A stretch of 64,000 nucleotides of DNA from Lacinutrix neustonica (GTDB lineage Bacteria > Bacteroidota > Bacteroidia > Flavobacteriales > Flavobacteriaceae): the NCBI RefSeq assembly GCF_026625145.1, contig NZ_CP113088.1, forward strand, positions 2,211,501 through 2,275,500. The letters run 5' to 3'. The position numbers and the translations under genes were made by a program. Under the pieces are notes generated by a model that was not told the origin of the DNA, searched no databases, and saw only the letters and a list, made by a program, of their open reading frames with translations. This document shows positions 1 through 64,000 of the stretch, piece after piece (position 1 is the first letter of the stretch; each line of letters begins with the position of its first letter).

Positions 1-429
1 ACAGGCTACAACATTAATACTGTAAAAAAAGCAGCAGGTGAAGACTTGTTTGAGTCTCTAATTAAACCATTTAAGGGCAAAGTTATTCACGTGGATTTTT
101 GGGCCACTTGGTGTGGCCAATGCATACCTAAAATTAAGGCTATTGAGCCACTTAAAGAAGAAATGAAAGATGATGCTATTGTGTTTTTATATATTACAAA
201 CGAAAGATCTCCGGAAGGTCAATGGAAGGATGCGGTTTCGAATATAAGAGGGGAGCATTATAGAGTTACTAATGATCAATGGGAAAGTTTATTAACGAAA
301 TTTAATTTTAGAGGAATTCCACATTATGTTTTAGTAAATAAAAAAGGGGCCGTTGTGAATACAGATTTAGGACATCCTACTATTAAACAACTAAAAACCA
401 TATTAGAAGAAGAAATCGCAAAAGAATAA
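1..429 (+). CDS. thioredoxin-like (TlpA/ResA-type) protein, C-terminal part
   Basis: The reading frame is open from base 1, so the gene begins upstream of the window. The TTG at 46 is only an internal codon. The visible part is a thioredoxin fold: a strand ending in the WATWCGQC active site (CxxC pair at about bases 106-124), a helix, and a late GIPHYVLVNKKG segment holding the cis-proline expected of the family. TlpA/ResA-like proteins of Bacteroidota are usually exported and membrane-tethered and reduce or oxidise disulfides in the periplasm. The N-terminal part that would show the signal or anchor is not visible. The next gene is convergent. Family call is firm; substrate unknown. Confidence 0.85.
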   Translation, partial: TGYNINTVKKAAGEDLFESLIKPFKGKVIHVDFWATWCGQCIPKIKAIEPLKEEMKDDAIVFLYITNERSPEGQWKDAVSNIRGEHYRVTNDQWESLLTKFNFRGIPHYVLVNKKGAVVNTDLGHPTIKQLKTILEEEIAKE

Positions 430-462
430 AAAGTATTTAGCGTTCCTAATGGGTAAACAGGT

Positions 463-1035
463 TTAATAGGCAAATCCTGAAAACCGTCCACAATGGGTCA
501 AAGAGAATGAGGTTGATAGTTTCAAAGCATTGCTAAATACTTGTGGAACACCAGCTGCTGTCTTTTTAATGTCTAACGTTTCAAAAGCTACCCCTTCCTT
601 TTTAGAAATTGCTTTTAGGAAGTTATGTTTTAAGGTGTCACTTTGCGTTTTGTAAGCTGGGTATTCCGTTTTGAACATTGAGGTGTTTACCTTTTGAGCC
701 TTGTCTTGCTTTGCAATTGTGTAGATGTAATCTTTAGTGATTTCTGAACGGGTAAAATAGGTGTCGTCACCTATTGAAACAAGTCCTTTTTTAATAGAAA
801 GAAGCTTGCATTCTAATCGTTTCGGATTAAAAAAACGTGTTCCAAACTGCTGTACCTGCACTTTATACGCCGCTTCTTTCATACTCCAAAGCAGCCAAAC
901 CCTTTGGTGAGGATCTTCCGCAGAAAAAATATAATCTTGTTCTTGTTGTGTGAACACTTTATCTAAAAAACGAGGTCGCTTCCAGTTCGAATCTGTAGCG
1001 GCTTGTTCTAAATCGACAATATCATTGCCTATCAT
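463..1035 (-). CDS. 4'-phosphopantetheinyl transferase superfamily protein
   Basis: A 190-residue protein starting with the GNDIVDL motif and carrying WSMKEAAYK near residue 50. Together these give the Mg/CoA-binding Asp and the W-S-x-K-E-x3-K signature of Sfp/AcpS-type phosphopantetheinyl transferases. These enzymes move phosphopantetheine from CoA onto the serine of an acyl carrier protein. Its ATG overlaps the TGA of the upstream ACP gene by four bases (ATGA), so the two are translationally coupled and this ACP is the obvious substrate. It is the last gene of the minus-strand lipid/polyketide cluster. It appears complete, with no frame break. Confidence 0.85.
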   Translation of the reverse strand: MIGNDIVDLEQAATDSNWKRPRFLDKVFTQQEQDYIFSAEDPHQRVWLLWSMKEAAYKVQVQQFGTRFFNPKRLECKLLSIKKGLVSIGDDTYFTRSEITKDYIYTIAKQDKAQKVNTSMFKTEYPAYKTQSDTLKHNFLKAISKKEGVAFETLDIKKTAAGVPQVFSNALKLSTSFSLTHCGRFSGFAY

Positions 1036-1286
1036 GTTGCGGCTAACTTTTCGTTTACAAGGTCCATGGCTGCTTTTACAGAGATCATTTTTTCCATATC
1101 ATCATTTTCAATGCGAATGTCAAATTCATCTTCAACATCTAAAATAACATCGACCAAATTGGCAGAGTTTATTTTTAAGTCGTTGATGAAATCTGTGTTT
1201 TCATTAAGATTTTTAAAGGCGTCTTCGTCTTGAATATAAGGCTGGACGATGGTTTTTAGTTTGGCGATAAGTTCTTCTTTTGTCAT
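1032..1286 (-). CDS. acyl carrier protein
   Basis: An 84-residue acidic four-helix-type carrier protein. The phosphopantetheine serine lies in the segment DLKINSANLVDVI, where most ACPs have DSL; here the residue before the serine is Asn and the one after is Ala, so this is a divergent, probably pathway-specific carrier and not the housekeeping AcpP. The helix II sequence that follows (ILDVEDEFDIRI) matches the canonical E-x-x-F/I pattern. It overlaps the phosphopantetheinyl transferase gene by four bases. The adjacent ketosynthase, dehydratase and SDR genes imply that it carries a growing acyl chain. Confidence in the family is high; the exact pathway is inferred. Confidence 0.85.
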   Translation of the reverse strand: MTKEELIAKLKTIVQPYIQDEDAFKNLNENTDFINDLKINSANLVDVILDVEDEFDIRIENDDMEKMISVKAAMDLVNEKLAAT

Positions 1287-1349
1287 AGGTTATTTTATCA
1301 TTTTTTATTCTTGAAACTTCAAGAATTTAATGTTTTCTAAAGATCACTA

Positions 1350-1555
1350 TTTTTTAGCACTTCGACAAGCTCAGTGTGACATCTTATCTTCTAATTGGCA
1401 ATGTTGTAATTCAGGTAAAACTGAAATTATTAGTAGGTCTAAGCTTAGTGTAACAGCTGTGTTTTTATTTGTTTGGGTTCTTTTTAATTTCATGACGAAA
1501 TGAAGCCAATTCTGAAATTGAATGTCAGTCTGAGCCTGTCGAAGACTCTAATCCC
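1350..1555. repeat. REP-like repeats flanking GIY-YIG copy 1 (distal side)
   Basis: No gene lies between the ACP and the first GIY-YIG gene. The stretch holds an element of the form TTCGACAAGCTCAGTGTGAC (ending at 1380) and the roughly inverted form GTCAGTCTGAGCCTGTCGAAG (1524-1544). The second belongs to a longer conserved block starting near 1500 that recurs at 2727-2772. The same two forms recur ten or more times between 1350 and 5640. They resemble the extragenic palindromic repeats common in flavobacterial genomes. Confidence 0.75.
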
Positions 1556-1861
1556 TTAAATACGATTATTATTTTGAGTATAATTTTTTGAAAATTCAAT
1601 GAGGTCTTGCCAATTTTCTTCAATCAATGCTTTTTTCTTTCTTTGAGACCATCCTTTAATTTGCTTTTCAATTTTAATAGCTTCTTTTGGGTTTTCACAC
1701 TGTAAATACCAAAGTAGCTTAACAGGTAATCTAGATGCTGTATACGATTCTTTTTTGTGACCCGATTTATGTTGAATCAGTCGTCTTTCTAAATCATTCG
1801 TCATCCCCGTGTAATAGGTTTTATCTGCACATAAAAGGATATAGACGTAATAGAATGTCAT
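1556..1861 (-). CDS. GIY-YIG single-domain nuclease (copy 1)
   Basis: A 101-residue single-domain protein opening with YYVYILLC and containing TYYTGMTNDLERRLIQH, the GIY-YIG signature (here YVY and YTG) with the conserved arginine that follows. It belongs to the small UvrC-N/URI-like family often called YhbQ-like, whose members can cut branched or single-stranded DNA. The C-terminal part, rich in Lys and Trp, is a likely DNA-binding tail. It is intact, unlike the second copy, and lies between oppositely oriented REP-like repeats within a run of cluster genes to which it has no evident biochemical link. Confidence 0.85.
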   Translation of the reverse strand: MTFYYVYILLCADKTYYTGMTNDLERRLIQHKSGHKKESYTASRLPVKLLWYLQCENPKEAIKIEKQIKGWSQRKKKALIEENWQDLIEFSKNYTQNNNRI

Positions 1862-2137
1862 TTTAATACTTCTTTATTTGGATTATACACTTCGATACTT
1901 CGACTTCGCTCAGTACAAGCGAAGCTCAGTGGGTCGTTCACAATTTAATTTATAAATAGCGATAGATACACTTCGACAAGCTCAGTGTGACAGCGACACT
2001 CCTGATTGGCTAAATTGCAAAACATACAACACTGAAATAACTGGCCAGTGTGACAATAGAGATCACAACTGGCAATATAGTTATCTAGACAAATCTAATC
2101 CATATGTCAGTCTGAGCCTGTCGAAGACTCTAATCAA
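1862..2137. repeat. REP-like repeats between the two GIY-YIG genes
   Basis: Non-coding stretch of about 275 bases. It holds an imperfect palindrome of the type CACTTCGATACTTCGAC...GCTCAGTAC...GAAGCTCAGTG (1889-1930), a TTCGACAAGCTCAGTGTGAC element (1971-1991) and a GTCAGTCTGAGCCTGTCGAAG element (2106-2126). The first is the right-hand border of copy 1 and the last is the left-hand border of copy 2, so the intergenic region marks the junction of two repeat-nuclease-repeat units. Confidence 0.75.
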
Positions 2138-4053: not shown

Positions 4054-4102
4054 TTTTTTTTATTTTCGAGAAGACCGGAATCTTATTAATATTAATTTAT
4101 AG

Positions 4103-4152: not shown

Positions 4153-4175
4153 ATTTCGATTCATTTATCTTTTGA

Positions 4176-15913: not shown

Positions 15914-16411
15914 TTAAGACGGATCTACTAAAAATAATGGTTGATCAAACTCTACTGGAGAGGAATCATCTACTAAAATTTTAACGACTTTACCTGATAC
16001 TTCAGATTCAATTTCATTAAATAGTTTCATGGCTTCAATGATACAAAGTACATCACCTTCAGCTATGGTTTGTCCTACTTCTACAAATAACGGCTTATCT
16101 CGGAGATGGTTTTCTATAAAACGTTCCAATAATTGGCGACTTTATTGTGATGTATTTTGCGTCTTCGCTGGCGGCCGCTGTAGCAGCGGCTTCGGCTGCA
16201 GATACCTCAGGAGCTCCTGCTGCTGGCGCTTGAGCTACCGGCATTTGCATGTGAGGCATTTGTGCTGCCATTGGCATGTGCTGTACATAAGTCGTTTCTG
16301 TATCAGGACCAGTTTTTATTGTAATCTTAACGTCTTCTGTTTCCAATTTAACCTCACTTGCACCGATTTCGCTACAAATTTGATTAAGTTTTGAATGTCT
16401 TTTAAATCCAT
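15914..16411 (-). CDS. accB: acetyl-CoA carboxylase, biotin carboxyl carrier protein (interrupted twice)
   Basis: The start MDLKDIQNLIKFVAKS at 16411 is the canonical AccB N-terminus. A loss at about 16369 (CACCGATTT for CACCAGATTT) shifts it; repair gives AKSGASEVKLETEDVKITIKTG. An Ala/Pro/Met-rich linker follows. A second break at 16098-16103 (TCTCGG) precedes the biotinyl domain, whose IIEAMKLFNEIE holds the biotin-accepting Lys. About 165 residues once repaired. It carries carboxybiotin between biotin carboxylase and carboxyltransferase. It sits between fabH and accC in the usual Bacteroidota order. Confidence 0.92.
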
Positions 16412-28387: not shown

Positions 28388-28401
28388 GTGGTCCCACTTG
28401 G
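28388..28401. repeat. attL: copy of the tRNA-Met 3' end
   Basis: GTGGTCCCACTTGG is identical to 35526-35539, the 3' end of the tRNA-Met gene with its first flanking base. The tyrosine integrase lies 170 bases away. Integration of an element at a tRNA 3' end leaves exactly this direct repeat. Confidence 0.8.
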
Positions 28402-28515
28402 TCCACCTGAAGTGTTGTCTTATTTTACTCTATTTTATTGTATTTAAGCACTTTAACCCAGTTAATACGGGGGTTTTTAGAAAAGGGAAATAAAGCGAAA
28501 TTCAATCAAATTAAA

Positions 28516-28542
28516 ATTATTCGTCCCCTCATTCGTCCCCTA
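28516..28542. repeat. left arm repeat (double ATTCGTCCCC)
   Basis: Two ATTCGTCCCC boxes separated by about five bases. A matching pair in the same orientation lies inside the right end at 35445-35471. The symmetric position within both ends suggests arm-type integrase or excisionase binding sites; inferred. Confidence 0.6.
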
Positions 28543-28557
28543 GAGATTCTTTTTTAA

Positions 28558-28565
28558 TATCTTTG
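28558..28565 (+). promoter_or_regulatory. -7 box (TATCTTTG) before the integrase
   Basis: TATCTTTG fits TAnnTTTG and ends four bases before the integrase ATG, implying a leaderless or very short-leader transcript. It lies next to the arm repeats, so integrase binding could repress it. Confidence 0.5.
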
Positions 28566-28569
28566 GGTC

Positions 28570-29802
28570 ATGGCAAAAGCAAAATTTGTACTCAAAGAAC
28601 CTCATGCAAAAACAGAGACTTTAATCTATCTCGTTTACAACTACCAATATAATAGATTTAAATATTCTACCGCTGAAAAAGTAAATCCTAAATTTTGGAA
28701 TAAAAACGACCAACGTGTTAAGGCTTCTAAAAACTTTCCCGAGCATCCCGAATTTAATGCGCGATTGGATAAAATTGAGAACGGAATAAATAATGCGTTT
28801 CGAAAATTGTTGAATGATGGCATTCAACCAAACAACAAAAATCTAAAAGACGCACTAGAAAACGAATTATCAGACCACATTTTAAAACCAAAGAAAACCA
28901 CACTCTTAGAATTTATAGAGGATTACATTGAAGAAAGTAAATTAAAAAAATCAATAGGTACGGTTAAAGTTTATAATACCACTTTTAAATATCTTAAAGA
29001 GTATTCACAAAAGCGTAAAAAATTAAATTTTGAAAACATCACACTTGAGTTTTACAGTAATTACGTTGCCTTTTTAAATATAGAATACAACCTTGCTTCT
29101 AATACGATTGGCAAACATATTAAGACTATAAAATCTTTTATGAATGAAGCCACAGACAGAGGGCTTAATGATAATCTTGATTATAGAAAGCGAAAATTTA
29201 AAACCATTCGTGAAGAAGCGGACACCATTTATTTAAGCATAGACGAACTCAAGCGCATTGAAGATTTAAAATTATCGGCTAGCCAAAGATTAGATAGAGT
29301 GCGCGATTTGTTTCTCATTGGTTGCTATACAGGCTTACGGTTTTCCGATTTTACAGAAATTAAACCCGAAAACATTACCTCTAACAATTCACTAATAGAA
29401 GTACGCACAAGAAAAACAAGCCAACGCATTTCTATTCCGTTACACCAAACAGTACGAAGGATATTAAAAAAATACAATAACAAGTTGCCAAAAGCATACA
29501 CGAACCAAACCATGAATCAATATTTAAAAGAAGTGGTTAGTTTAGCAGGCATTAAAGAACTTATAGAAACCTCAATTACAAAAGGCGGAAAAATTGAACG
29601 CACCGTATTACCAAAATTTAAATTGGTATCAACCCACACCGCAAGACGAAGTTTTGCAACAAATTTATATTTAGCACAAGTGCCTACTATCTCCATCATG
29701 AAAATAACAGGGCATAAAACAGAACAATCCTTTTTGAAATACATAAGAGTAACACAAAAAGAAAACGCAGATAAATTATTAACACACCCATTTTTTAACT
29801 AA
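28570..29802 (+). CDS. tyrosine recombinase/integrase
   Basis: A complete 410-residue integrase of the Bacteroidota type. It has an N-terminal arm-binding domain (YRIxYNYQYNRFKYSTAEKVNPKFWN-like), a SAM-like core-binding domain (residues about 120-210) and the catalytic domain. The first catalytic Arg lies in GCYTGLRFSDF, HTARRSF supplies the His-x-x-Arg, GHKTEQSFLKYI supplies the later His and the Tyr nucleophile. It catalyses integration at the tRNA-Met 3' end of this window. Its stop overlaps the next start (TAATG). Confidence 0.95.
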   Translation: MAKAKFVLKEPHAKTETLIYLVYNYQYNRFKYSTAEKVNPKFWNKNDQRVKASKNFPEHPEFNARLDKIENGINNAFRKLLNDGIQPNNKNLKDALENELSDHILKPKKTTLLEFIEDYIEESKLKKSIGTVKVYNTTFKYLKEYSQKRKKLNFENITLEFYSNYVAFLNIEYNLASNTIGKHIKTIKSFMNEATDRGLNDNLDYRKRKFKTIREEADTIYLSIDELKRIEDLKLSASQRLDRVRDLFLIGCYTGLRFSDFTEIKPENITSNNSLIEVRTRKTSQRISIPLHQTVRRILKKYNNKLPKAYTNQTMNQYLKEVVSLAGIKELIETSITKGGKIERTVLPKFKLVSTHTARRSFATNLYLAQVPTISIMKITGHKTEQSFLKYIRVTQKENADKLLTHPFFN

Positions 29803-30500
29803 TGATAATAGATTTTAAAACATTACAGAAGGACTTTAATTCACGCTCAAGTGAACTGAAAAACACAAAAAGATTTGTAGAAGACGAGTTGAAGCAAGTT
29901 GACTTGTTATTAAATCATAGTAATTATGCCCCAGATTTCGGAATGTCAGGTTTAACAGAACGATATAAATCAAAACTCGAGAATTTAAATAGAATATATA
30001 ATTGTGTTCAAAGTGGTTGGAAGATATTTTTATGGGGGTACGAAAAATATTATTATAATGAAAAAGAAACCAAATATAGAAGAGTCTCAAATATTAATGA
30101 TATTTCAGAAAAACACTTAAAAAGCTTTAATGATGAGAATGAAGTATTTCATAATCAAGGATTGGAGTTGGGAAAATATGTTTTATGGCTCAGAAAATTA
30201 GAAAACGAGCCCTCCACAGAAAAAGAATACTCCACTTTAAGCCCTGAACAAAAATTGCTTGCCCTGCATTATTTAGGCCTAGATTTTAGAGACTTTACAA
30301 ATACTCATGTTGCAAATGTACTTAGTCAAATATTAAATGTCGGCCCGTAAAATATTAGAAAAAATCTTTCAAAAATAAACGGTGGCAAAAATGATTTACG
30401 AAATATTACGAATTTTGAAAAACTCACAGAACTATTTGAGAACAAAACCTTTGAGTCTGTTTCTAACAAATTAAAAAGAGAGATTAAGGAGTTAAACTAA
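29802..30500 (+). CDS. hypothetical protein of the integrated element (in-frame stop at CCGTAA)
   Basis: About 232 residues. I do not recognise the family, although the LSPEQKLLALHYLGLDFRDF segment recurs in element proteins of Bacteroidota. A long N-terminal helix with Lys/Glu bias suggests a coiled coil, and the protein lacks signal or membrane segments. The raw frame stops at 30345-30350, CCGTAA; if this was CCAGAA or CCTGAA, the frame continues NVGPENIRKNLSKINGG to a stop at 30500. The start overlaps the integrase stop, so the two are probably co-transcribed. Confidence 0.6.
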
Positions 30501-30583
30501 AAATTGTGGCACCCCAAAACGGGAACCACAGCCATATCTTATTTAATATTTGCACCATTGTTAAACTAAAATAAAGTAAAATA

Positions 30584-30898
30584 ATGGCAAAAATTGAATT
30601 GAACACTTTCGAATTTTCAGACTTCGAAAAAGCTTTTGACAACGCTTTTAATAAAGCAATAAAAAGAGCAGTAGAAAACAAACTATTCCCTCCAAAAATT
30701 GGAGACATTGACTTATTCTCTAGGTCAAACACTGCAAAAAAACTTTGCATCTCACTCCCAACACTTCATGACTGGACTTTAGAGGGAATTATTAAAGCCT
30801 ATCGCATAGGCAGTAGAGTTCTATATAAAAAGCAAGATATAGAAGATGCTTTGACGTTGATTAACCCAAAAGTAAGAAGGGAGGAACTATCATGTTAA
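30584..30898 (+). CDS. helix-turn-helix (excisionase/MerR-like) protein
   Basis: A 104-residue protein. Its C-terminal half is a MerR/excisionase-type HTH: FSRSNTAKKLCISLPTLHDWTLEGIIKAYRIGSRVLYKKQDIEDAL, matching the HTH_17 pattern with the wing ending in a Lys-rich strand. The N-terminal half is a charged helix of unknown role. In integrated elements of Bacteroidota such proteins act as excisionases or regulators next to Rep genes. The next gene starts within its last codons, so the pair is translationally coupled. Confidence 0.8.
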   Translation: MAKIELNTFEFSDFEKAFDNAFNKAIKRAVENKLFPPKIGDIDLFSRSNTAKKLCISLPTLHDWTLEGIIKAYRIGSRVLYKKQDIEDALTLINPKVRREELSC

Positions 30899-31107
30899 AA
30901 AAGAAAAATGATTACTCCGTTATTGTTTTCCTAGAAAATGAAAAAAAGCCTAAAAAGTGGGAATTTGTTCATAAGCTAAATGGCTTCTCTATGTTCTTAT
31001 CTAAAAAACACCCTACTTGGCTATACATGAATGTTTACAACAGGCGAACCAGTCAGTTTATGAAGCAATTCAAGAAAGGCGTTTTCGTCCCGCCGTTCAT
31101 TGAGTAG
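30892..31107 (+). CDS. small basic hypothetical protein
   Basis: A 71-residue protein rich in Lys, Arg and aromatic residues, ending FMKQFKKGVFVPPFIE. No recognisable family. It overlaps the HTH gene by seven bases and precedes the iteron-like region of the Rep gene. Confidence 0.5.
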   Translation: MLKKKNDYSVIVFLENEKKPKKWEFVHKLNGFSMFLSKKHPTWLYMNVYNRRTSQFMKQFKKGVFVPPFIE

Positions 31108-31122
31108 GTCTTTCTTTTTTTT

Positions 31123-31178
31123 AACCTTTTAAAATTAAAAACCTTTAAATAAAAACCTTTAATAAATAACCTTTTAAT
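31123..31178. repeat. iteron-like repeats upstream of the Rep gene
   Basis: Four direct copies of AACCTTTWAA (31123, 31140, 31154, 31168) spaced 14-17 bases apart in a highly AT-rich stretch, ending about 30 bases before the Rep start. Such arrays often bind replication initiators or mark an origin. Confidence 0.6.
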
Positions 31179-31208
31179 GGTTTTAATAATTGTACAACGA
31201 TTCAGATT

Positions 31209-32043
31209 ATGATAGTCAAGAACACATACGGTGTGAGTGTTGCTTTTTCAATTGCAAAATACGGCATTGCTCCAAAAAGTGAGTTTACAGGTTCCGCATT
31301 GCAGAGAAGAAAACCTCTAAATAAACCAAAAGCAAAAAAAAAGGAAAGTAAAGACAGGGAGCGAAGAGAACGCTCCTTGTCTAGGCGCTCGAAACAAAAA
31401 ATTAGAAAAAAAATTACGTGTTTCTCTAGAACTCAAAAAAGACTAAGTTTTGTCACGCTTACCTTTTTAAACAAAGTTTCAGATGAACAAGCGGTAAATG
31501 TTCTAAGAAAATTTATTGATAACGTTAAAAAACGAAGTGACGATTTTCAATATTTATGGGTGGTAGAGCGACAAACCAAAAACGATGAATTTAAGGGAAA
31601 CCCACATTTTCACATGATAACCAACAAGTATTGGAAAATTGAAAAATGGTGGAATTACTGGTTGGCTCTCCAACACAAGAACGGCATTGTTCCCGAGAGA
31701 TAAGGATTTTAAACCCTCCTCGGCTTTTGATGTAAAACAATTAAACACAAACAATATTAAAAGAATATCTTCTTATGTCACGAAATACGTCACCAAGAAT
31801 AATGCAAAGTTTAAATGTCAAGTTTGGAATTGCTCGAGAAAAGTATCTGAGCTATATACAGATTTCTATACCACAACCGAATTTACAGACCAATTTAAAC
31901 GCCTTAACGCAGTGACTAAGGAGATAACAAACAGCGAAAGAAACAACCCAGTAGTTGACGTTAAAATGATTGATTTAAACAGGAATACCTTGCCACTTTA
32001 TAAAAGGCTTGATGATAAAAATATAAACACTATAAAAAATTAA
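31209..32043 (+). CDS. HUH-type replication initiation protein (frame interrupted)
   Basis: About 278 residues. An N-terminal Lys/Arg-rich region leads into motif FVTLTF (HUH motif 1), NPHFHMI (motif 2 with the metal-binding His pair, here HFH) and ISSYVTKYVTKN, a Tyr-x3-Tyr motif 3. This is the layout of rolling-circle replication initiators and related relaxases. The break at 31693-31698 (CCGAGA) repairs to NGIVPRDKDFKPSSAFDVKQ, joining the two open frames. Together with the integrase it makes the element an integrated replicon, perhaps able to replicate after excision. Confidence 0.8.
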
Positions 32044-32045
32044 AT

Positions 32046-32390
32046 ATGAATAAAAAAATTATTGAAAACATAGTATTTGACACGAAAGTAACGGATAACT
32101 TTTACGTTATAAAAGATAAAGAAAAGCACGAAATAAACTCAACTTTTATAAGCGAAAATTTTGATAACATAATAATTGAAGAGGGTTACAACTATGGATA
32201 CGCAACTTTAAAGTATAAAAACTGCCTTTTGCTATCATTTGGCAATGAATATGAATTTAGACTTGATTTTATCATACTAGACACTACAAAAGAAATAAGT
32301 CACGAGATTATAAATTATCTATCAGAAAACTATGATGATGAAATACGTAGTACTACGATAGATATCTATGAATATTCAGATGATTTTTAA
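32046..32390 (+). CDS. small acidic hypothetical protein
   Basis: A 114-residue protein, strongly acidic overall (many Asp/Glu, ending DIYEYSDDF). No signal peptide or transmembrane segment. It starts two bases after the Rep stop. I do not recognise a family. An acidic small protein next to a restriction-modification pair could be a DNA mimic or immunity factor, but there is no motif to support this. Confidence 0.5.
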   Translation: MNKKIIENIVFDTKVTDNFYVIKDKEKHEINSTFISENFDNIIIEEGYNYGYATLKYKNCLLLSFGNEYEFRLDFIILDTTKEISHEIINYLSENYDDEIRSTTIDIYEYSDDF

Positions 32391-32435
32391 ATTTAATCAT
32401 GAAATAGCTAATTTCGTTTAAGACTTTTTTTAACA

Positions 32436-32481
32436 ATAAAAGGGGAGCCTGTACATTTTAGTAACAGGTTCTCTTTTTGTT
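32436..32481. terminator. terminator after the Rep operon
   Basis: Inverted repeat AAAGGGGAGCCTGT/ACAGGTTCTCTTTT with G-U pairs and a T run. It separates the plus-strand Rep operon from the minus-strand restriction genes that end opposite. Confidence 0.75.
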
Positions 32482-32599
32482 TCAACTCCAATTACATACT
32501 TCTCAAAACATGTTTACGCTCTTAGGTTAGGTTTCTTCAGAAACTTTTCACCTTAGTATCGATCCATATTATATAGTTATTATTTAATAACCTGTTTTT

Positions 32600-33724
32600 T
32601 TATATCAAATCATTTATATCATCTTGAAACACATTATTTCTGTGATAATCCAAATACTTTTCTCTGTCTTCGGGGAATATTCTCATTCTGTTTTTTGCAT
32701 TAGGGTTAATGCTTAATTTCTCCCAAGTATACGAGCTTAATTGAGTGCCACAAATCAGTTCTCCATTGTCGGTGAAAGTTATATACCCTTGATCAAATAA
32801 TTTATCATAAGTAGGAGATAGTGCCAATCCATTTAAATAGTCTAATGCTTGATCATTTTCGTTGTTTTTAATGCAGATACTGTAGGGTTTAATATGACTT
32901 GCAATTAATAAACGTTCATCTGTTATTTTTGTAAATGGGCACTGAGGCATATAATTGATAACTTCTTTTCTATATTTTATAGAACCTTTTCTATGAGAAC
33001 TTTTTATAATAACACCAGTTTCCATTTCTTCTATTTCCAATTCTTGCTCTGTATTTAGTGATTTTGGATGAACAAATGATCTAAATTGATAATCTAACAG
33101 TATTCTAAAGTAAAATAGTGGTTCTGCGTTTTTGTTGTCTGTGGGAACTAATTTTAAGATTGACAAATAGCTTATACTAGGTAATATTAATTCTCGCCAC
33201 AACTTCCATATGGAATCGTCAGAACGAACATAACCCCTGTTTTGGCTTTGGGATAAGTTATCTGAGGCATCATAAATACTGAAAAACAAGAGATTTGTTT
33301 CTAGGCTATTTACTTTTTCAAATCGTTCGTTGTAGAATTCACTTATATTATTATGATATTGCTGTTCTTGAGAAAAGTATTCTGTTTTAGCATCATTTAA
33401 ATATTTTTGAAAGTTTGATTTACTAAAAAAGCATCTGTTTTCGCTTATTATCGCTCCCTTTTCTTTTGCTGAATTAATTGATTTTCTTTTTTTATTTAAA
33501 TCATAATGTTCTAAACCCCAATTAGAATAATTGAAAAAATTAGAAATTCTATCGCCTTTTTCTCCTGCATAAGTTCCGACATGTTTTTTAGACTCACCAT
33601 TCCCTCGAAATTGTGCTAACTTGTTTTTTCTATGAATAAAACTATCTTCTGCTCTAAAATCTTGTATAGAATCGATTATTAAATATTCTATACCTTCAAT
33701 TTTAATTTTCTGTAAATTCTCCAA
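32600..33724 (-). CDS. HNH endonuclease, probable restriction enzyme
   Basis: A 374-residue protein. Residues about 265-335 form an HNH-type nuclease region: CPFTKITDERLLIASHIKPYSICIKNNENDQALDYLNGLALSPTYDKLFDQGYI, the SHIKPW-like variant often seen in restriction HNH proteins. The N-terminal 260 residues are charged and not recognised; they would hold DNA recognition. It follows the cytosine methyltransferase gene with no gap (adjacent stop and start) on the same strand, the usual layout of a type II restriction-modification pair. Cleavage motif cannot be read from sequence. Confidence 0.8.
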   Translation of the reverse strand: MENLQKIKIEGIEYLIIDSIQDFRAEDSFIHRKNKLAQFRGNGESKKHVGTYAGEKGDRISNFFNYSNWGLEHYDLNKKRKSINSAKEKGAIISENRCFFSKSNFQKYLNDAKTEYFSQEQQYHNNISEFYNERFEKVNSLETNLLFFSIYDASDNLSQSQNRGYVRSDDSIWKLWRELILPSISYLSILKLVPTDNKNAEPLFYFRILLDYQFRSFVHPKSLNTEQELEIEEMETGVIIKSSHRKGSIKYRKEVINYMPQCPFTKITDERLLIASHIKPYSICIKNNENDQALDYLNGLALSPTYDKLFDQGYITFTDNGELICGTQLSSYTWEKLSINPNAKNRMRIFPEDREKYLDYHRNNVFQDDINDLI

Positions 33725-35206
33725 TTATTTTTTCGCAAATTTAGTTATGTCCATTTGTTTTAATAATGCTATAAGAACATCTACCACAATACTGTTCCCT
33801 GCTTGTCTATATATTTGGGTATCACTAACTTCTTGCTTGAAATCATCTCTAAAACCCATCAATCTTAGACACTCTTTCGGAGTTAGTTTTCTTATTCTAC
33901 CTTTATTGTGGGTAACGTAGTTATCAACTCCTGCACGATGCATTTTGTGCATAGATTGCAATAAGGGTCTTGCAATTTCTAGATCTGTTTTTATTGATGT
34001 TTTGAAGTTTTTAGTTCCCTCAGTCAAAACATATTTTTTTGTTTTTTCAAGTAAGTAATATTTTTCTTCAACTTCATTTACATCAAAAATCAATTCGTTA
34101 AACTCTGGTGAGTCTTTGCTTTCGAAAATAAAATCACCATGCCAATTAAATTGTTGATTTGCTTTTTGGCAAATTGCTATATCCCCATTAATTTGAGTGT
34201 ATCGTTTTTTTCTGTTTTTTGAACTTGTTACAAACTTCACCCCTTTTTCTTTCAAATAATATTTACTGTCAATATAATCTTCTAGAAAATCTTGCATTTT
34301 ATACTCTAACTTTATCGGCTTAGGAAACTCAAATTCTATTGAATTATCTTTAAAACCAACAACAAAAATTCGTTCTCTGTGTTGTGGAACACCATAATTT
34401 TTAGAATTTAAAACTTGATAAAAGTATTTATACCCTAATTCATCAAAGGTTGCTTTTATTGTTTCAAATGTATTTCCGTTGTCGTGATTTATTAAACCTT
34501 TTACATTTTCAAATATAAATACTTTGGGCTGACTTTCTTTAACAACTCTCGCAAAATCATAAAAAAGAGTCCCTCTTGTGTCCGCAAACCCTTTTCTTTT
34601 TCCAACCATTGAGAATGATTGACAAGGACTTCCTCCAACTAATAAATCAACTTTGCCTTTATATTTTTTTCCATTAATGTTTTGAACATCATCATACCAA
34701 TTTTCTTCATCAATTTTGTAATTAGCAAAATAACTTTGCTTTGCGAATTTGTCTATATCACTTGCAAAAATTATTTCTGTTGCTATTTTCAATCTTTTAA
34801 AAGCATATTCAATAGCTCCAATTCCTGAAAACATTGTCGCAATTCTTAATTTGGCTTTAGGATTTTCAAACTCTTTTTCTGTCCAATTTTCTTTATGTTC
34901 GGTATTAGAAAAGTATAATTGTAATTGTTCCTCAACAATATTCAAAACATCTTTATAGTAAGGATAGTTTTTAATTTCTTGTGTTACTTTTGATGAGTAA
35001 TAGTAATTTAAAACTTTTCTTTGCTCCGTTTGAAGTATATCTGCTAGAGGGCTTAATAGGTGTTCAGATAGATTTCTTTCTTCTCTTTCTATCTTTCCAA
35101 GAGAGGAAGTATCAATATCTAAATGCAATGCAACTTTTTTCAGTGGAAATCCAAGTTCAGTTCTACGTTGCTTAATATATTCTCCAAAGGTTGGTGTCAT
35201 ATTCAA
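33725..35206 (-). CDS. C5-cytosine DNA methyltransferase with N-terminal HTH
   Basis: A complete 493-residue protein. Residues about 1-70 are an XRE-type HTH (FGEYIKQRRTELGFPLKKVALHLDIDTSSLGKIEREERNL). The Dcm-like domain starts at LRIATMFSGIGAIEYAFK (motif I), with the catalytic Cys195 in GGSPCQSFSMVGKRKGFADTRG, FENVKGL (motif VI), and RLMGFRDDF / YRQAGNSIVVDVL (motifs IX-X). It transfers a methyl group to C5 of cytosine. The fused HTH may repress its own promoter. It pairs with the adjacent HNH gene and is a candidate source of the modified motif discussed in the findings. No frame break. Confidence 0.92.
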   Translation of the reverse strand: MNMTPTFGEYIKQRRTELGFPLKKVALHLDIDTSSLGKIEREERNLSEHLLSPLADILQTEQRKVLNYYYSSKVTQEIKNYPYYKDVLNIVEEQLQLYFSNTEHKENWTEKEFENPKAKLRIATMFSGIGAIEYAFKRLKIATEIIFASDIDKFAKQSYFANYKIDEENWYDDVQNINGKKYKGKVDLLVGGSPCQSFSMVGKRKGFADTRGTLFYDFARVVKESQPKVFIFENVKGLINHDNGNTFETIKATFDELGYKYFYQVLNSKNYGVPQHRERIFVVGFKDNSIEFEFPKPIKLEYKMQDFLEDYIDSKYYLKEKGVKFVTSSKNRKKRYTQINGDIAICQKANQQFNWHGDFIFESKDSPEFNELIFDVNEVEEKYYLLEKTKKYVLTEGTKNFKTSIKTDLEIARPLLQSMHKMHRAGVDNYVTHNKGRIRKLTPKECLRLMGFRDDFKQEVSDTQIYRQAGNSIVVDVLIALLKQMDITKFAKK

Positions 35207-35444
35207 TATTCTATTTAGGACAAAAATAGTCCAAAAATATGGAATAATTTATTTAGCTATACAATATTTTCTCACATTGTTATCAACCAAAATAGTATGT
35301 TTTTATTGTCAGAATATCTACTATAAAATTAATTAAAATATCATAATTATATGAGGGAAAGCAAACAAGATTTATTAATCTTAATACAGTATCAAAATTC
35401 TAATAGTTATAAACTACGTTAATTGTTCAATCCAATAACACTAT
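35207..35444. other. gene-free AT-rich region inside the right element end
   Basis: About 240 very AT-rich bases upstream of the methyltransferase. It should contain the promoter of the restriction-modification pair; no specific box could be placed. Confidence 0.5.
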
Positions 35445-35471
35445 ATTATTCGTCCCCCAATTCGTCCCCTA
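35445..35471. repeat. right arm repeat (double ATTCGTCCCC)
   Basis: Same double box in the same orientation as 28516-28542 (one base shorter spacer). It lies about 55 bases inside the right attachment site, mirroring the left end. Confidence 0.6.
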
Positions 35472-35475
35472 AAAA

Positions 35476-35512
35476 AGCAAAAGCCTCATAAACTTAACGT
35501 TTACAAGGCTTT
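35476..35512 (-). terminator. terminator-like hairpin after tRNA-Met (element-borne)
   Basis: On the minus strand: GCAAAGCCTTGTAAACG...GAGGCTTTTGC followed by a T run. It lies just downstream of the tRNA on its strand, and appears to replace the original terminator now at 28356-28383. Confidence 0.65.
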
Positions 35513-35525
35513 GCAATCTATAAAA

Positions 35526-35539
35526 GTGGTCCCACTTGG
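35526..35539. repeat. attR: 3' end of tRNA-Met
   Basis: GTGGTCCCACTTGG, identical to 28388-28401. The tRNA remains intact at this side, so the element carries the 3' end copy that restores it. Confidence 0.8.
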
Positions 35540-35600
35540 GCTCGAACCAAGGACCACCTGATTATGAGTCAGGTGCTCTAACCAACTGAGCTATGGGACC
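35527..35600 (-). tRNA. tRNA-Met (CAU anticodon)
   Basis: 74 bases on the minus strand. Acceptor GGTCCCA pairs with TGGGACC, with a D arm (GCTCAGTTGGTTAGAGC), anticodon loop CTCATAA giving anticodon CAU, and TTCGAGC in the T loop. The discriminator is A and CCA is not encoded. Elongator Met is the most likely identity; tRNA-Ile with a modified CAU anticodon is the alternative. Its 3' end is the attachment site of the element. Confidence 0.9.
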
Positions 35601-46659: not shown

Positions 46660-46689
46660 CACTCCCGTTGTTTTTAGAGGAATTTGATT

Positions 46690-48488
46690 ATGAAGCACAT
46701 TAGAAATTTTTGTATTATCGCACATATCGATCACGGTAAAAGTACACTTGCCGATCGTTTATTAGACGCTACCGGTTCGGTAACGGCCCGTGAGCAACAA
46801 AACCAGTTATTAGATAGTATGGATTTAGAGCGTGAGCGTGGTATTACCATTAAATCGCACGCCATACAAATGGACTATACCTATGAAGGTGAAAAATATG
46901 TTTTAAATTTAATAGATACTCCAGGCCACGTCGATTTCTCTTATGAAGTGTCTCGATCTATTGCTGCCTGTGAAGGGGCTTTACTAATTGTAGATGCCGC
47001 CCAAAGTATTCAGGCACAAACGATTTCAAATTTATATTTGGCATTAGAAAATGATTTAGAAATCATTCCTGTTTTAAATAAAGTCGATTTACCTAGTGCA
47101 AATCCTGAAGAAGTAACAGACGATATTGTCGAGCTTTTAGGCTGTGATCCTAGTGAAGTTATTCATGCTAGTGGAAAAACAGGCTTTGGTGTAGAAAACA
47201 TCTTAAAAGCCATTATAGAGCGTGTTCCAGCGCCTAAAGGCGATCCAAACGCGCCACTTCAAGCCCTTATTTTCGACTCGGTTTACAATACCTTTAGAGG
47301 TATTGAAACCTATTTTAGAGTTTTTAACGGCGAAATTAAAAAAGGACAAAAAATTAAATTTGTTGCCACAGAAAAAGAATACTATGCCGATGAGGTGGGT
47401 ACCTTAAAATTAACTCAAGTAGCTAAGCAAAGTGTAAAAACGGGAGATGTAGGCTATTTAATTACAGGCATCAAAACAGCAAAAGAAGTTAAAGTTGGAG
47501 ATACCATTACCGATTTTGATAACCCAACGACAAATATTGTTGAAGGTTTTGAGGATGTAAAACCTATGGTTTTTGCGGGTATTTATCCAGTGGACACAGA
47601 AGATTATGAAGAGCTAAGAAACTCTATGGAAAAGCTGCAATTAAACGATGCCTCTTTAGTGTTTCAACCGTGAAAGCTCTGCGGCTTTAGGTTTTGGTTT
47701 TCGTTGTGGATTCTTAGGAATGTTACACATGGAAATTATTCAAGAACGACTAGAGCGTGAATTTGATATGACCGTGATTACAACTGTACCAAACGTGTCT
47801 TATTTTGCGTATACCAATAAAAACCCGGAAGAACCTTTTATAGTTAATAACCCTAGTGATTTACTGGACCCAACTACGATTAATCGTGTTGAAGAACCTT
47901 TTATTAAAGCCACGATAATCACTAAAGCCGACTTTGTGGGTAACGTTATGTCTTTATGTATTGAAAAACGTGGGATGATTACCAATCAAACCTATTTAAC
48001 ACCGAGAGCGTGTTGAACTAACGTTTGATATGCCTTTGGCAGAAATTGTTTTCGATTTTTACGATCGATTAAAAACGGTTTCTAAAGGGTATGCTTCATT
48101 CGATTATTCACCAATTGGGATGCGTACTTCAAAATTAGTGCGTTTAGATGTCTTATTAAATGCACAACCCGTAGATGCGCTTTCAGCATTAATTCATGCC
48201 GATAATGCACAGAGTATTGGTAAAAAAATGTGTGAAAAACTAAAAGAACTCATTCCCCGTCAACAATTTGATATTCCAATTCAAGCTGCCGTTGGCGCCA
48301 AAATTATTTCTCGTGAAACCATTAAAGCCCTGCGTAAAGATGTAACCGCTAAATGTTACGGTGGTGATATTTCACGAAAGCGTAAACTTCTTGAAAAGCA
48401 GAAAAAAGGTAAAAAACGTATGCGTCAAGTGGGTAATGTGGAAATACCACAACAAGCGTTTATGGCTGTTTTGAAGTTGAACGACTAA
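46690..48488 (+). CDS. lepA: elongation factor 4 (interrupted twice)
   Basis: A translational GTPase of about 598 residues. G-domain motifs are [16 protein letters not shown] (G1), [12 protein letters not shown] (G3) and [11 protein letters not shown] (G4). The C-terminal domain typical of LepA ends in [24 protein letters not shown]. The raw frame breaks at 47668-47673 (CCGTGA) and 48002-48007 (CCGAGA); repairs give [20 protein letters not shown] and [15 protein letters not shown], both invariant LepA segments. Starting codon chosen at ATG 46690 ([14 protein letters not shown]), not the TTG upstream. Preceded by a -7 box. Confidence 0.95.
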
Positions 48489-50091: not shown

Positions 50092-51357
50092 ATGATAAAC
50101 AACAAAGTCATTTCAATTATTTTGGGAGGCGGACAGGGATCGCGCTTATATCCGCTTACCGAAGCCCGATCAAAACCAGCAGTGCCCATTGCAGGAAAAT
50201 ACCGTTTGGTAGATATTCCCATTTCGAATTGTATCAATTCCGACATCAAACGCATATTTGTATTAACACAATTCAATTCAGCATCATTAAACAGACACAT
50301 TAAAAACACCTATCACTTTAGCTTTTTTAGCTCCGGATTTGTAGACGTTTTAGCAGCAGAACAAACACCGAGAAAACAAAACCTGGTTTCAAGGGACTGC
50401 TGATGCCGTGAGACAGAGTATGCACCATTTTAAAAGACATGATTATGAATATGCTCTCATTCTATCGGGTGACCAATTGTATAGTATGGATTTTAATGAC
50501 ATGCTCAACAAGCATATAGAAAATAATGCTGCTATCTCTATAGCGACTTTACCAGTAAAAGAAAAGGACGCCACAGCCTTTGGTATTTTAAAAACCGATA
50601 AAGAAAACGTCATCACATCATTTATAGAAAAACCGAGATGAAACACTGTTACCTGATTGGACTTCTGAGGTGAGCACTGAAATGCAAGCGCAAGAACGGA
50701 ATCACCTGGCGTCGATGGGTATTTATATTTTCAATAAAGCCCTTTTAGAGGAACTTATGGCAGATACAACTACTATTGATTTTGGAAAAGAAATCATACC
50801 ACAATCCATTCATAATCACAAAGTACTGAGTTATCAATTTGAGGGCTATTGGACAGATATTGGGAATATAGATTCTTTCTTTGAAGCCAATATTGGTTTA
50901 ACAGATGATCTCCCAAAATTTGATCTTTACGACATAAAAAACCGTGTCTACACTAGAGCTCGCATGCTACCCACTTCAAAAATTACGGGAACAAAATTAA
51001 CAAAAACAGTAATTGCCGAAGGTTGCATTATAAGCGCAGAAAGCATAGAGCGTTCCGTTATAGGCATTCGCTCCGAATTGGAGACAACAGTATTATTAGC
51101 CACGTATATACTATGGGAAGTGATTATTACCGAGTCTTGAAGATTTGTCTGATGATCACAAAGTGTTAATAGGCATTGGAAAGCGTTGTAAAATTAGTCA
51201 TGCCATTTTAGACAAAAATTGCAGCATTGGTAACGATGTTGAGATTAAAGGCGGGAAACACCTCCAAGATATTGAAACCGAAAACTACCTAATAAAAGAG
51301 GGCATCGTCGTGATTAAAAAAGGCGCCATAATCCCTGCTGGTTTTAAAATAGTTTAA
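50092..51357 (+). CDS. glgC: glucose-1-phosphate adenylyltransferase (interrupted at least three times)
   Basis: Conserved motifs: [38 protein letters not shown] (catalytic and regulatory sites), [40 protein letters not shown] and [16 protein letters not shown]. Breaks at 50368 and 50633 (both CCGAGA) repair to [20 protein letters not shown] and [16 protein letters not shown] third, near 51100-51135, needs two corrections and appears only partly motif-linked; expected text is [21 protein letters not shown]. It makes ADP-glucose, the donor for glgA. Confidence 0.92.
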
Positions 51358-53265
51358 TGAGCAAAACAAAAGTATACAGTCTTTTTACTGATTTTGATAT
51401 TACACTTTTCAAATCGGGGAAACATTTTAAATTATACGAAAAGTTTGGAGCACATCTTGTGACGTATAATACCGAAACAGGTGTCTATTTTGCCGTTTGG
51501 GCCCCTTCCGCAAAGACGGTTTCTGTAGTCGGTGATTTTAACTCCTGGGATGACTCACAGCATGTTTTAAATGTACGCTGGGACGCTTCGGGGATTTGGG
51601 AAGGCTTTATCCCCGAGGCAAAAAAAGGCATGCGCTATAAGTATAAGATCGTATCAAATAGCAATGGTGTAGTTACTGAAAAAATTGATCCGTATGCGCT
51701 ATACTTTGAAAAATCTCCCAAGACAGCATCCATAATTTGGGATATTTCAGACTATAAATGGAGCGACACGCAATGGCTTAGCTATCGGAAAGATAAAAAT
51801 GCATTAGATAAGCCCTATTCGGTATATGAAATTCATTTAGATTCCTGGCGAAAAAATGAGGATGGAACAAGTCTTAGTTATAACGAGTTCGCAAAAGAAT
51901 TAGTTCATTATGTAAAAGACATGAATTTTACACATGTAGAATTTATGCCTATAATGGAGTATCCATATAATCCGTCTTGGGGATACCAATTGGTAGGTTA
52001 CTTTGCACCAACCTCTCGTTTTGGAAACCCTCAAGAGTTTATGCAGCTCATTGATGCCTTACATCAAAATAATATCGGTGTGATTTTAGACTGGGTACCG
52101 TCTCATTTTCCTTCTGATGACCATGGTTTAGGTTTTTTTGATGGCACTCATTTGTATGAACATCCGGACCCAAAAAAAGGGTATCATCCGGACTGGAAAA
52201 GTCTTATTTTTAACTATGAAAGGAATGAGGTTCGCTCCTTTTTAATAAGCAATGCACTATTTTGGTTAGACCATTATCACATCGATGGGTTACGTGTAGA
52301 TGCTGTAGCTTCCATGCTATATTTAGATTACTCCGGAGAACATGGCGCATGGGATCCCAACGCATTTGGTGGAAACGAAAACCTAGCCGCTATTTCCTTT
52401 CTAAAAGAATTTAATGAAGCTGTTTATAGTCATTATGATGATGTTCAAACCATTGCTGAAGAATCTACAGCATTTCCAGGCGTTACAAAACCTGTGAGTC
52501 TTGGTGGCTTAGGTTTTGGGATGAAATGGATGATGGGCTGGATGCATGATACGCTGCATTACTTTGCTCGAGATCCTATTTATAGACCACACCATCAAAA
52601 CGACATTACCTTTAGCTTAACATATGCGTTTACTGAAAATTTTATGTTACCATTGTCGCATGATGAAGTGGTTCATGGTAAAAATTCTATTTTAGGTAGA
52701 CTCCCGGGCGATGAGTGGCAGCGCTTTGCCAATTTAAGATTACTATACACCTATATGTACACGCATCCTGGTGCAAAACTCCTCTTTATGGGTAATGAAT
52801 TTGGGCAATATACAGAATGGAACTTTCAAAAGAGTTTAGACTGGAATTTATTAGAGTATTTACCACATATTGGACTTAAAAATCATATTAAAGCACTTAA
52901 TCTATTTTACAAAAACACACCGGCCCTTTTCGAAAAAGGCTTTAGTGTAGAAGGTTTTGAATGGATCAGTCATGACGATGCCAAAAACAGTGTGATCGCG
53001 TTCCTTAGAAAAGGTCATGATCCGAGAAAACGATGTCATTGTCGTGTGTAATTTTACCCCCAATACTCATAACAAATATAAAATAGGAGTGCCAAAAAAA
53101 GGAAACATTATAGAAATATTTAATAGTGATGCTGAAGACTTCGGAGGGAGCAATTCATTAAATACTAAACCAGTTAAAACGATTAAGGAACGCTGGAACA
53201 ATAATCCGTTTTCTGCTGATATAACAATACCACCATTGGCGGTCACGGTCTTTAAATATGAATAA
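51357..53265 (+). CDS. glgB: glycogen branching enzyme (frame interrupted)
   Basis: About 635 residues. An N-terminal CBM48 (GVYFAVWAPSAKTVSVVGDFNSWDD) is followed by the GH13 barrel with DGLRVDAVASMLYLDY (catalytic Asp), a Glu in TIAEESTAFP and PLSHDEVVHGKNS. A C-terminal all-beta domain follows. The break at 53022-53027 (CCGAGA) repairs to KGHDPENDVIVVCNFTPNT. It makes alpha-1,6 branches. The ATG overlaps the glgC stop by one base, indicating an operon. Confidence 0.94.
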
Positions 53266-60861: not shown

Positions 60862-60912
60862 GAAAAACTTAATAGTGACTCACTTTTCTATCCTTTTTCA
60901 TAATTTGCAAGA

Positions 60913-61776: not shown

Positions 61777-61798
61777 AAATAACTAAACACCTTACACC

Positions 61799-63415
61799 AT
61801 GAAATTTATTAATAAGACACTATTATTCTCCCTCTTTTCAGCAGTGATGTTATCAAGCTGTGGTGGTGGAGCCCCAATATTATCAACGCCTATTGAAAAT
61901 ATTGACACAACACCTATTAAAGAGGCCGATTTAACTACTGCCGAAAAGCAGAATTGGGGTCACTTGGATCTAGTAAAAGATACGATTCCAGGAATGAGTG
62001 TTGACAAAGCATATGCCGAAATTATAAAAGGCAAAAAAGGACAAAAAATTATTGTTGCCGTTATCGATTCCGGAATTGATATCACTCACGAAGATTTAGA
62101 TGGTGTCCTGTGGACCAATAAAAAAGAAATCGCCGGAAACGGGAAAGATGATGATGGTAATGGGTATATCGATGACATCCACGGATGGAATTTTCCGGGT
62201 ACTGGCTATGATGAGCAATTAGAATACGTGCGCTTAATTGCTAGTGGTGACACCAGCGCGCCAAGATATGCTGAAGCTAAAGCGAAATATGATACCGATT
62301 ATGGACAAGCGTTATCAAGAAAACAATACTATGATCAAGTATACGCGAAGGTGAATGATGCTAATAAAGTACTGTCGGCTCATTTTAAAAAACGCAGTTA
62401 TACAGCAAAAGAAGTTGCCGCAATTGAAACTGAAGACGCAGAATTAAAAGCAGCTATAGAAACCGCTAATTTAATGTATAGTAATGGTATGACGTCTCTT
62501 GAAGAAGGTTTGGAACAAGTTAAGGGAGGTGTAGAGTACTTTACAGATCAAGTAAATTTTAATTTAAACAAAGACTTTAAAGGTAGAAAAACAGGGGATA
62601 ACCCAAACGATTTTAACGATAAATCAGGCTACGGTAATGGAAATGTTTTGCCAGTAAAAAAATCTGAAGCTCATGGAACGCACGTTGCAGGTATTATTGC
62701 TGCCGAACGTAATAATGGAAAAGGAGCAAATGGCGTTGCTAATAATGTTGAAATCATGAGTATTCGTGCTGTTCCAAATGGTGATGAGTATGATAAAGAC
62801 GTTGCAAAAGCCATTCGCTACGCTGTTGATAATGGTGCAAAAATAATTAATGGTAGTTTTGGAAAAAGTTTTTCTCCACATGCAGATTGGGTAAGAGATG
62901 CTATTAAGTACGCTAGTGATAAAGGTGTGGTCTTTGTCCATGCTGCAGGAAATGATGGTAAAGATGTCGATACAGCCCCAAATTTTCCGAGACGATAACA
63001 TAAATGGTGAGGAAGTGAGCAATACGTATATTCGTGTTGGTGCTTTAGCCCCTAGTTATGGCACCAATATGGTTGCAGGGTTTTCTAACTATGGAAAGAA
63101 AAATGTAGATGTTTTTGCGCCTGGTGCTCAAATATATTCTACAACACCGTGAAAACGAATATAGTACTTTTGGTGGTACATCTATGGCTGCTCCTGCGGT
63201 TGCTGGGGTTGCTGCTTTAGTATGGTCTCAGTATCCAAAACTAACCGCTGCTCAAGTGAAGCAAATTATTTTAGATTCTCGGTTTAGCGGTTACAACTAA
63301 GGTTGTTGTTGGTGGTGATGCTAATAATATACAAGCCTTTGGAAGCTTAACAAAATCAGCAAAAATGGTTAATGCTTACAATGCATTGGTTATGGCTGCT
63401 CAATTATCTAAATAA
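61799..63415 (+). CDS. subtilisin-like S8 protease lipoprotein (interrupted three times)
   Basis: Lipobox at residues 18-21 (MLSSC), so it is probably anchored in a membrane. Catalytic Asp90 in VIDSGIDITHEDLDG, His295 in AHGTHVAGIIAAE, and Ser in FGGTSMAAPAVAGVAALVWS. Between Asp and His there is an insertion of about 140 residues, rich in Lys/Glu and Asn/Gly, far longer than usual. Breaks at 62987 (CCGAGA), 63147 (CCGTGA) and 63277 (TCTCGG) repair to APNFPDDNINGEEVSN, YSTTPENEYSTFGGTSM and ILDSGLAVTTKVVVGGD. Ends at 63415 after MVNAYNALVMAAQLSK. Confidence 0.9.
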
Positions 63416-63426
63416 TTAGTAATTAA

Positions 63427-63478
63427 CAAACCGCTTAATATAGTTATCCTCTTGGTTAACCATTAAGCGGTTTATTTT
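63427..63478 (+). terminator. terminator after the S8 protease
   Basis: Inverted repeat AAACCGCTTAAT/ATTAAGCGGTTT with a long loop and trailing T-rich run. Confidence 0.8.
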
Positions 63479-63491
63479 TAAATAAATTCAA

Positions 63492-64000
63492 ATGAAAAAG
63501 CTTTTTTTCTTCGCGGTATCGGTGTCTCTTATTTTAGCCTCATGTGGCTCATCTAAAAGTGTTTCAAAAACTTCAAGCCCTTCACTAAGCAGTCCCATGG
63601 CCGTGACAGCTAGTTCTGCTAAGTCTACCTATTGGCAACAACATGTTGACTACAAAATGGATATAGATATGAATGTGAATGACTACCAATATCAAGGCAA
63701 GCAGACATTAGTGTATACCAATAATTCTCCGAGATGTTTTAGACAAAGTATTCTATCACTTATACTTTAATGCGTTTCAACCAGGAAGTGAAATGGATAT
63801 TCGATTACAAACCATAGAAGATCCGAGACGGCAGGATGGTTACTCAAGTTGGCGATGTCAAAGAAAGTAGAATAAGTAAATTAAAACCCAATGAAATTGG
63901 GTACATCAATGTCTCCTCTTTGAAGCAAAATGGAAACAAAGTAGAGCATATAACTGCAGGAACTATTTTAGAGGTAACATTGAACAAAGCCATTCAGCCC
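63492..64000 (+). CDS. M1-family metallopeptidase, N-terminal part (interrupted twice)
   Basis: Signal peptide with lipobox-like SLILASC. The start of an aminopeptidase-N-like N-domain follows: YWQQHVDYKMDIDMNVNDYQYQGKQTLVYTNNSPDVLDKVFYHLYFNAFQPGSEMDIR. This opening is typical of Bacteroidota M1 peptidases. Breaks at 63729 and 63823 (both CCGAGA) repair to NNSPDVLDKVFY and EDPDGRMVTQVGD. The gene continues past the end of the window, so the zinc motif HExxH is not visible. Confidence 0.8.

Follow-up and report, generated by a model that had tools for sequence, protein, structure and literature searches.

Many reading frames are interrupted in the stretch of the Lacinutrix neustonica genome analysed here, a window of 64,000 nucleotides (G000:C1:2211501-2275500), and the question is whether the genes are broken or only their sequence is. 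The genome is a single contig of 3.905 Mb, with a completeness of 84.46 and a contamination of 4.93. We conclude that the interruptions are very probably base-calling errors at one pentanucleotide, CCAGA, which likely carries a modified base, and that the genes themselves are probably whole. The window also holds an integrated element with a gene for a C5 cytosine DNA methyltransferase, a candidate for the enzyme that would write the mark.

The source genome was compared with a genome of the same genus (G004; 2 contigs, 100% complete), the closest relative among the genomes examined. The two are syntenic, with about 84% nucleotide identity across the compared region of 264 kb, which consisted of the window and 100 kb on each flank, aligned to the relative. 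The relative's GlgB is 89% identical to that of the window, and the relatives of the window GlgB are flavobacterial. For an unbiased comparison of 5-mers, 222 kb of aligned DNA was used, and no motif was assumed beforehand. The most depleted 5-mer was CCAGA (74 versus 423 in the relative) and the most enriched was CCGGA (293 versus 80). The window contains 19 CCAGA, where a Markov model predicts 56. Because CCAGA is over-represented in the relative (z-score +6.4), whose usage is in line with that of 80 outgroup loci (+13.3), and is under-represented in the source genome (-13.1), it is the source genome that is the odd one out. Wider samples gave the same picture. The source genome contains 1,631 copies of CCGAGA, versus 65-360 in each of 12 congeneric genomes. 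None of the 298 other genomes drawn from the family (299 in all) has as few CCAGAA, whether as a plain count or per Mb; the source genome has 339 copies versus 1,785 of the reversed control pattern.

The interruptions were then located relative to this motif. Isolated frame-breaking indels inside open frames of the relative formed the set of frame breaks. In the loose test, a break was counted as being at the motif if, within a few bases, the relative has CCAGA or TCTGG, or the source genome has CCGAGA, CCGTGA, CCGA or TCGG; the strict test omitted the bare CCGA/TCGG. By the loose test 41 of the 44 breaks in the window and 121 of the 142 in the 264 kb lie at the motif, and by the strict test 40 of 44 and 107 of 142, respectively. 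Random coding columns passed the loose test in 7.3% of draws. Two of the genes affected are the following:

46684..47673, plus strand, 5' part of lepA, matching profile positions 1-326 of 595; the frame ends at CCGTGA near 47670
51357..53051, plus strand, 5' part of glgB; the match ends at profile position 549 of 633, beside the CCGAGA at 53022

On both strands together, CCGAGA occurs at 37 sites in the window:

Plus strand, CCGAGA: 2291, 3823, 21517, 26224, 31693, 42425, 43262, 43414, 43688, 46004, 48002, 49439, 50368, 50633, 53022, 54651, 56908, 59360, 60090, 62987, 63729, 63823
Minus strand, seen as TCTCGG: 2906, 4306, 7129, 8030, 16098, 21267, 24948, 36781, 37729, 39359, 54904, 56051, 58876, 58964, 63277

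At 32 of them the source sequence is exactly one base longer than the relative. The preliminary description of the window had held that every CCGAGA breaks a gene, which is nearly but not strictly true: three of the remaining sites have the same length as in the relative, one falls within a 13-base difference and one is unaligned. Its coordinates proved largely sound, as all 15 positions that it named for insertions hold CCGAGA or TCTCGG. It had also counted about 14 one-base losses at CCGA or TCGG, a number in keeping with the 18 of 196 other CCGA/TCGG in the window that are one base shorter than the relative. Seven of the eight positions given for such losses are on CCGA or TCGG; for the eighth, 16369, the alignment places the event a few bases away, at 16364. 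Of five CCAGA reported as intact, that at 29931 is exact, and the others were placed 4-21 bases away from the sites at 16622, 38009, 41562 and 54516. In the 264 kb as a whole, 80 of 114 CCGAGA sites carry one extra base, 16 are unchanged, 4 differ otherwise and 14 are unaligned.

The fate of the 423 aligned CCAGA of the relative reveals the whole spectrum of change. In the source genome 36 are intact, 96 read CCGGA, 39 CCGAGA and 34 CCGA; other outcomes include CCTGA (37), CCCGA (27), CCAAA (20) and CCGTA (17), and the length is changed at 91 in total. The CCTGA and CCCGA outcomes are about as frequent as ordinary synonymous change would make them. Among the controls, GCAGA is intact at 202 of 398 sites (16 length-changed), ACAGA at 211 of 460 (14) and TCAGA at 150 of 297 (15). 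At codon position 3 these controls (835 sites) gave 472 intact, 21 with A replaced by G and 16 changed in length, from which 177 intact sites are predicted among 313 CCAGA. We found 29 intact sites, 79 CCGGA in excess and 70 length changes in excess, that is, 178. Since 178 were found and 177 expected, the missing CCAGA are fully made up by miscalls, and there is no room for real loss of CCAGA. The estimated outcome per site, in rounded figures, is 16% read correctly, 45% substituted and 40% with an indel, so that about five in six CCAGA sites are estimated to be misread in the assembly. The substitution to CCGGA is the commonest misreading and is more numerous than each single type of indel. 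As it leaves the frame open, this largest class (96 of 423) escaped the frame-based reading of the preliminary description.

A CCGGA substitution is silent in some reading frames and changes an amino acid in others. Where the source genome has TC before a tryptophan codon of the relative, 8 of 13 such codons are changed to arginine, versus 5 of 577 elsewhere. Likewise, AGR arginine codons preceded by CC in the source genome are changed to glycine in 10 of 27 cases, versus 6 of 808 elsewhere. The Trp to Arg changes at the motif argue against evolution, and the errors are found in all reading frames, on both strands and throughout the 264 kb, with no filtering by selection. Real restriction avoidance, in which CCAGA would have been lost by mutation because a nuclease cuts it, would agree with the strong depletion and with the many changes at synonymous third positions. 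However, the depletion is wholly balanced by CCGGA and indels, both Trp to Arg replacements and frame breaks occur, and the A to G change of the third base is rare in neighbouring contexts (21 of the 835 control sites); we regard such avoidance as extremely unlikely. Hardly any weight can be given, either, to real decay, to phase variation at a hypermutable motif, or to programmed frameshifting or recoding at CCGAGA. These would account for frames that are open in the relative and interrupted in the source genome, but genes such as lepA are among those struck, substitutions, deletions and insertions all occur at one motif, and the total matches the expected number of unmutated CCAGA. A recoding signal would, moreover, leave CCGGA unexplained. 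The view first put forward in the preliminary description, that a motif is systematically mis-called and that neither decay nor phase variation is at work, is thus upheld by the comparison of error position, motif, spectrum, reading frames and strands, and by arithmetic closure: the breaks fall where a relative with intact frames has CCAGA, the Trp to Arg and Arg to Gly changes found at the motif are very rare elsewhere, and 178 sites are recovered versus 177 expected.

A fixed short motif that is misread in most of its copies, on both strands and throughout the 264 kb, points to miscalling at a modified site, and a modified base is the likely cause. If a base within CCAGA is chemically modified, a long-read base-caller not trained on modified CCAGA would be predicted to misread the site as CCGGA, CCGAGA or CCGA. 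We infer that the modification is methylation, and that the assembly was built from long reads of native DNA, probably nanopore reads, and not polished with short reads. That modified motifs attract errors is known from other cases, and the CCAGA case is a new instance of this class of artefact. In the passages of PMC6591954 on Dcm motifs, about 70% of the consensus errors of the then-current Oxford Nanopore Technologies base-callers fall in CCAGG/CCTGG and are ascribed to 5-methylcytosine (m5C) missing from the training data; according to the relevant part of PMC12392509, methylation-related errors persist despite deeper sequencing. As in the Dcm case, the errors described here are concentrated at one short motif, and the core CCAG is common to both. 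Unlike it, our case concerns the asymmetric CCAGA in a flavobacterium, about 84% of the sites are estimated to be wrong, and the modification is deduced from the errors. A literature search returned no paper joining CCAGA, a methyltransferase and nanopore, nor one joining nanopore, TCTGG and methylation, and a wider search on nanopore consensus errors in flavobacteria found nothing.

Several observations weigh against miscalling at a modified base. There are 21 frame breaks of the 142 in the 264 kb that lie away from the motif, several of them in runs of A or T. Of the 114 CCGAGA sites, 16 have an unchanged length, and both the platform and the modification are deduced from the assembly sequence. 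Since the 21 breaks elsewhere include several changes in the length of A or T stretches, the assembly is fairly clean apart from the motif sites.

The motif itself could be delimited more closely. It had first been given as CCWGA, with CCTGA included, and this form was ruled out: CCTGA shows no depletion (255 copies in 264 kb versus 312 in 295 kb of the relative), and at codon position 3 on the sense strand it is intact in 28 of 79 cases, a proportion matching that of GCTGA (54 of 151). The motif is CCAGA only. CCGTAA, listed earlier as a misreading, is not clearly enriched (118 versus 100 in the relative) and carries an extra base at just 4 of 118 sites, although a small share of CCAGA does read CCGTA (17 of 423). 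Of the 54 CCGTGA sites in the 264 kb, 10 carry one extra base. The expectation that longer context matters was correct. All one-base contexts on both sides of CCAGA are hit, to an unequal degree, and the context ACCAGAT accounts for 25 of the 86 intact CCAGA in the 264 kb versus 36 of 560 in the relative; the outcome of base-calling depends on the neighbouring bases. GCCAGA is almost gone among the intact sites of the 264 kb.

Which enzyme would write the mark was addressed next. The window contains the following element and genes:

28388..35539, element (about 7.1 kb) integrated at tRNA-Met, with a 14-base direct repeat at both ends
28388..28401, plus strand, left 14-base repeat, putative attachment site
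28570..29802, plus strand, tyrosine integrase of the element (PF00589, PF13102, PF17293)
31209..31703, plus strand, REP_ORF2-G2P-like gene of the element (PF23343); its open frame ends just behind the CCGAGA at 31693
32600..33724, minus strand, HNH restriction endonuclease (374 aa), its gene immediately following that of the methyltransferase
33725..35206, minus strand, C5 cytosine DNA methyltransferase with an N-terminal helix-turn-helix (HTH), 493 aa (PF00145, E 4.7e-85; HTH_3, E 9.8e-6; TIGR00675)
35526..35539, plus strand, right 14-base repeat, lying at the tRNA gene's 3' end
35526..35600, minus strand, tRNA-Met (cat), the integration target

In an Rfam scan the tRNA alone was matched. The alignment to the relative stops at window position 28401 and resumes at 35521, at overlapping positions of the relative. 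As it reaches one end of the element and resumes at the other in this way, the aligned sequences indicate that the relative holds an empty site and lacks the element. PF00145 spans residues 121-485 of the methyltransferase, which has the motifs PCQ (194), ENV (233), QHRER (275) and QAGNS (468). The N-terminus of the endonuclease bears a weak resemblance to B3-type DNA-binding domains; its predicted model is poor in the HNH half, and Foldseek gave no significant match.

We put at about even odds that the mark at CCAGA is m5C, written by this C5 enzyme, which would be paired with the HNH endonuclease. Methylation would then keep the partner nuclease from cutting CCAGA in the chromosome, and the specificity of the methylase could be read from the errors. 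In Neisseria meningitidis, CCAGA is on record as the m5C site of the type IIS enzyme NEIS0771, confirmed with MspJI and missed by single-molecule real-time (SMRT) sequencing (PMC7973814), and appears as such also in PMC7046676, which makes a C5 enzyme with an odd asymmetric site credible. The five-base motif and the C5 class are common to NEIS0771 and the candidate; the Neisseria passages of the two papers do not speak of read errors. The assignment to the C5 enzyme is weakened by several facts. Its link with NEIS0771 is by motif and class, and the relative carries six PF00145 matches. Within the element there are two intact CCAGA and one CCGAGA, which is too few to judge. Three plasmids with 57%-identical enzymes display no CCAGA depletion, a result whose weight depends on how they were sequenced. 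Furthermore, the sites of C5 enzymes are for the most part palindromic, unlike CCAGA. Avoidance of palindromes was tried as a clue to the C5 site and rejected, as the relative has equally few AGCT, CTAG and others.

These plasmids, from Acinetobacter and Vitreoscilla, encode LlaJI-type (McrBC-like) systems. The window methyltransferase is 57% identical to theirs over 407 columns and 67% identical (63/94) in the recognition region. The N-terminus of the window endonuclease is about 30% identical to that of the LlaJI-type R1 subunit, and within that region of the endonuclease only this part of R1 matches. Membership in the LlaJI type was rejected: the nuclease there is formed by a McrB-like AAA ATPase (R1) and a McrC-like LlaJI subunit (R2), whereas the partner in the window is a single HNH protein of 374 aa. 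The window and plasmid systems (L152-L154) have one recognition module and two nuclease architectures, the shared part being probably the one that reads DNA. It may be proposed tentatively, at somewhat less than an even chance, that the window carries the writer, that the HTH-C5 and B3-HNH proteins of the element form a new restriction-modification architecture sharing LlaJI-type recognition parts, and that the errors are a record of the methylome. If this is true, the errors of an unpolished long-read assembly can be read as such a record.

Family searches of the source genome revealed other possible writers. The methyltransferase at 33725..35206 is its only PF00145 match, and there is one beta-class N6/N4 methylase (PF01555), one type IIL-like protein (PF07669) and one HsdM, with a further weak match of 292 aa (PF02384). 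D12-class methylases and DndC gave no match in these searches, which do not cover all methylases. The type I HsdM was rejected as the writer, being present in both the source genome and the relative, and bipartite sites are a poor fit to CCAGA. The weak PF02384 match at 3681107 also has a counterpart in the relative.

The same miscalling could arise if the mark were N6-methyladenine, written by the predicted type IIL (MmeI-like) enzyme at G000:C1:850025-853066 or by the small beta-class methylase at G000:C1:3107537-3108220; we consider this possible but rather doubtful. The type IIL enzyme is a serious rival as the writer. It would modify just the CCAGA-bearing strand, type IIL-like enzymes having asymmetric sites and marking one strand. 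Its frame of 1,014 aa is intact, with Eco57I, MmeI_Mtase, MmeI_N and TaqI_C domains, and in PADLOC it matches a type IIG profile with a reported E of 0. The centre of the errors is an adenine, the third base of the motif, and TCTGG has no adenine. The relative has no PF01555 match, and its best PF07669 match scores 41 bits versus 150 in the source genome. On the other hand, MmeI-family sites are usually longer than five bases, and in the papers found CCAGA is recorded for an m5C enzyme and not for an N6-methyladenine enzyme. A genome of another genus (G314) with a 99% identical copy has a normal CCAGAA count, which is uninformative if that genome was sequenced with short reads. The carriers of type IIL and beta-class enzymes among the 299 genomes likewise have ordinary CCAGAA counts, informative only where the platform is known. 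The main text of a paper on Bacteroides methylases does not contain CCAGA.

The near-identical copy of the type IIL-like enzyme, at G314:C54:12159-15200, suggests a recent transfer between genera; the other homologues share just its first half or two thirds. The beta-class methylase is 86-90% identical to proteins in five genomes of other genera and has otherwise distant matches. Some other modification, such as phosphorothioate or an unknown base, could also lead to the same miscalling, because the error spectrum does not identify the chemistry. We consider this improbable; for phosphorothioate, DndC had no match in the genome, the Ssp and Dpd systems not having been searched.

Whichever enzyme is the writer, the errors have consequences for the use of the assembly. 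By extrapolation from the CCAGA density of the relative, the source genome would contain about 7,400 CCAGA, with errors at about 6,200 of them. About 40% of the wrong sites would be false frame breaks, and about as many would be false amino-acid or silent changes, invisible to frame checks. Counts of pseudogenes, substitutions or missing marker genes made from this assembly would mislead, and the completeness estimate of 84% is probably lowered by the miscalls. Conversely, a k-mer that is depleted and balanced by miscalls relative to a close genome can reveal the site of a methylase from the assembly alone and point to its gene. In a side observation, two records titled "MAG: Bifidobacterium breve" (L016 and L078) were found to encode a flavobacterial-type GlgB, 70-71% identical to the window GlgB, and these titles look wrong.

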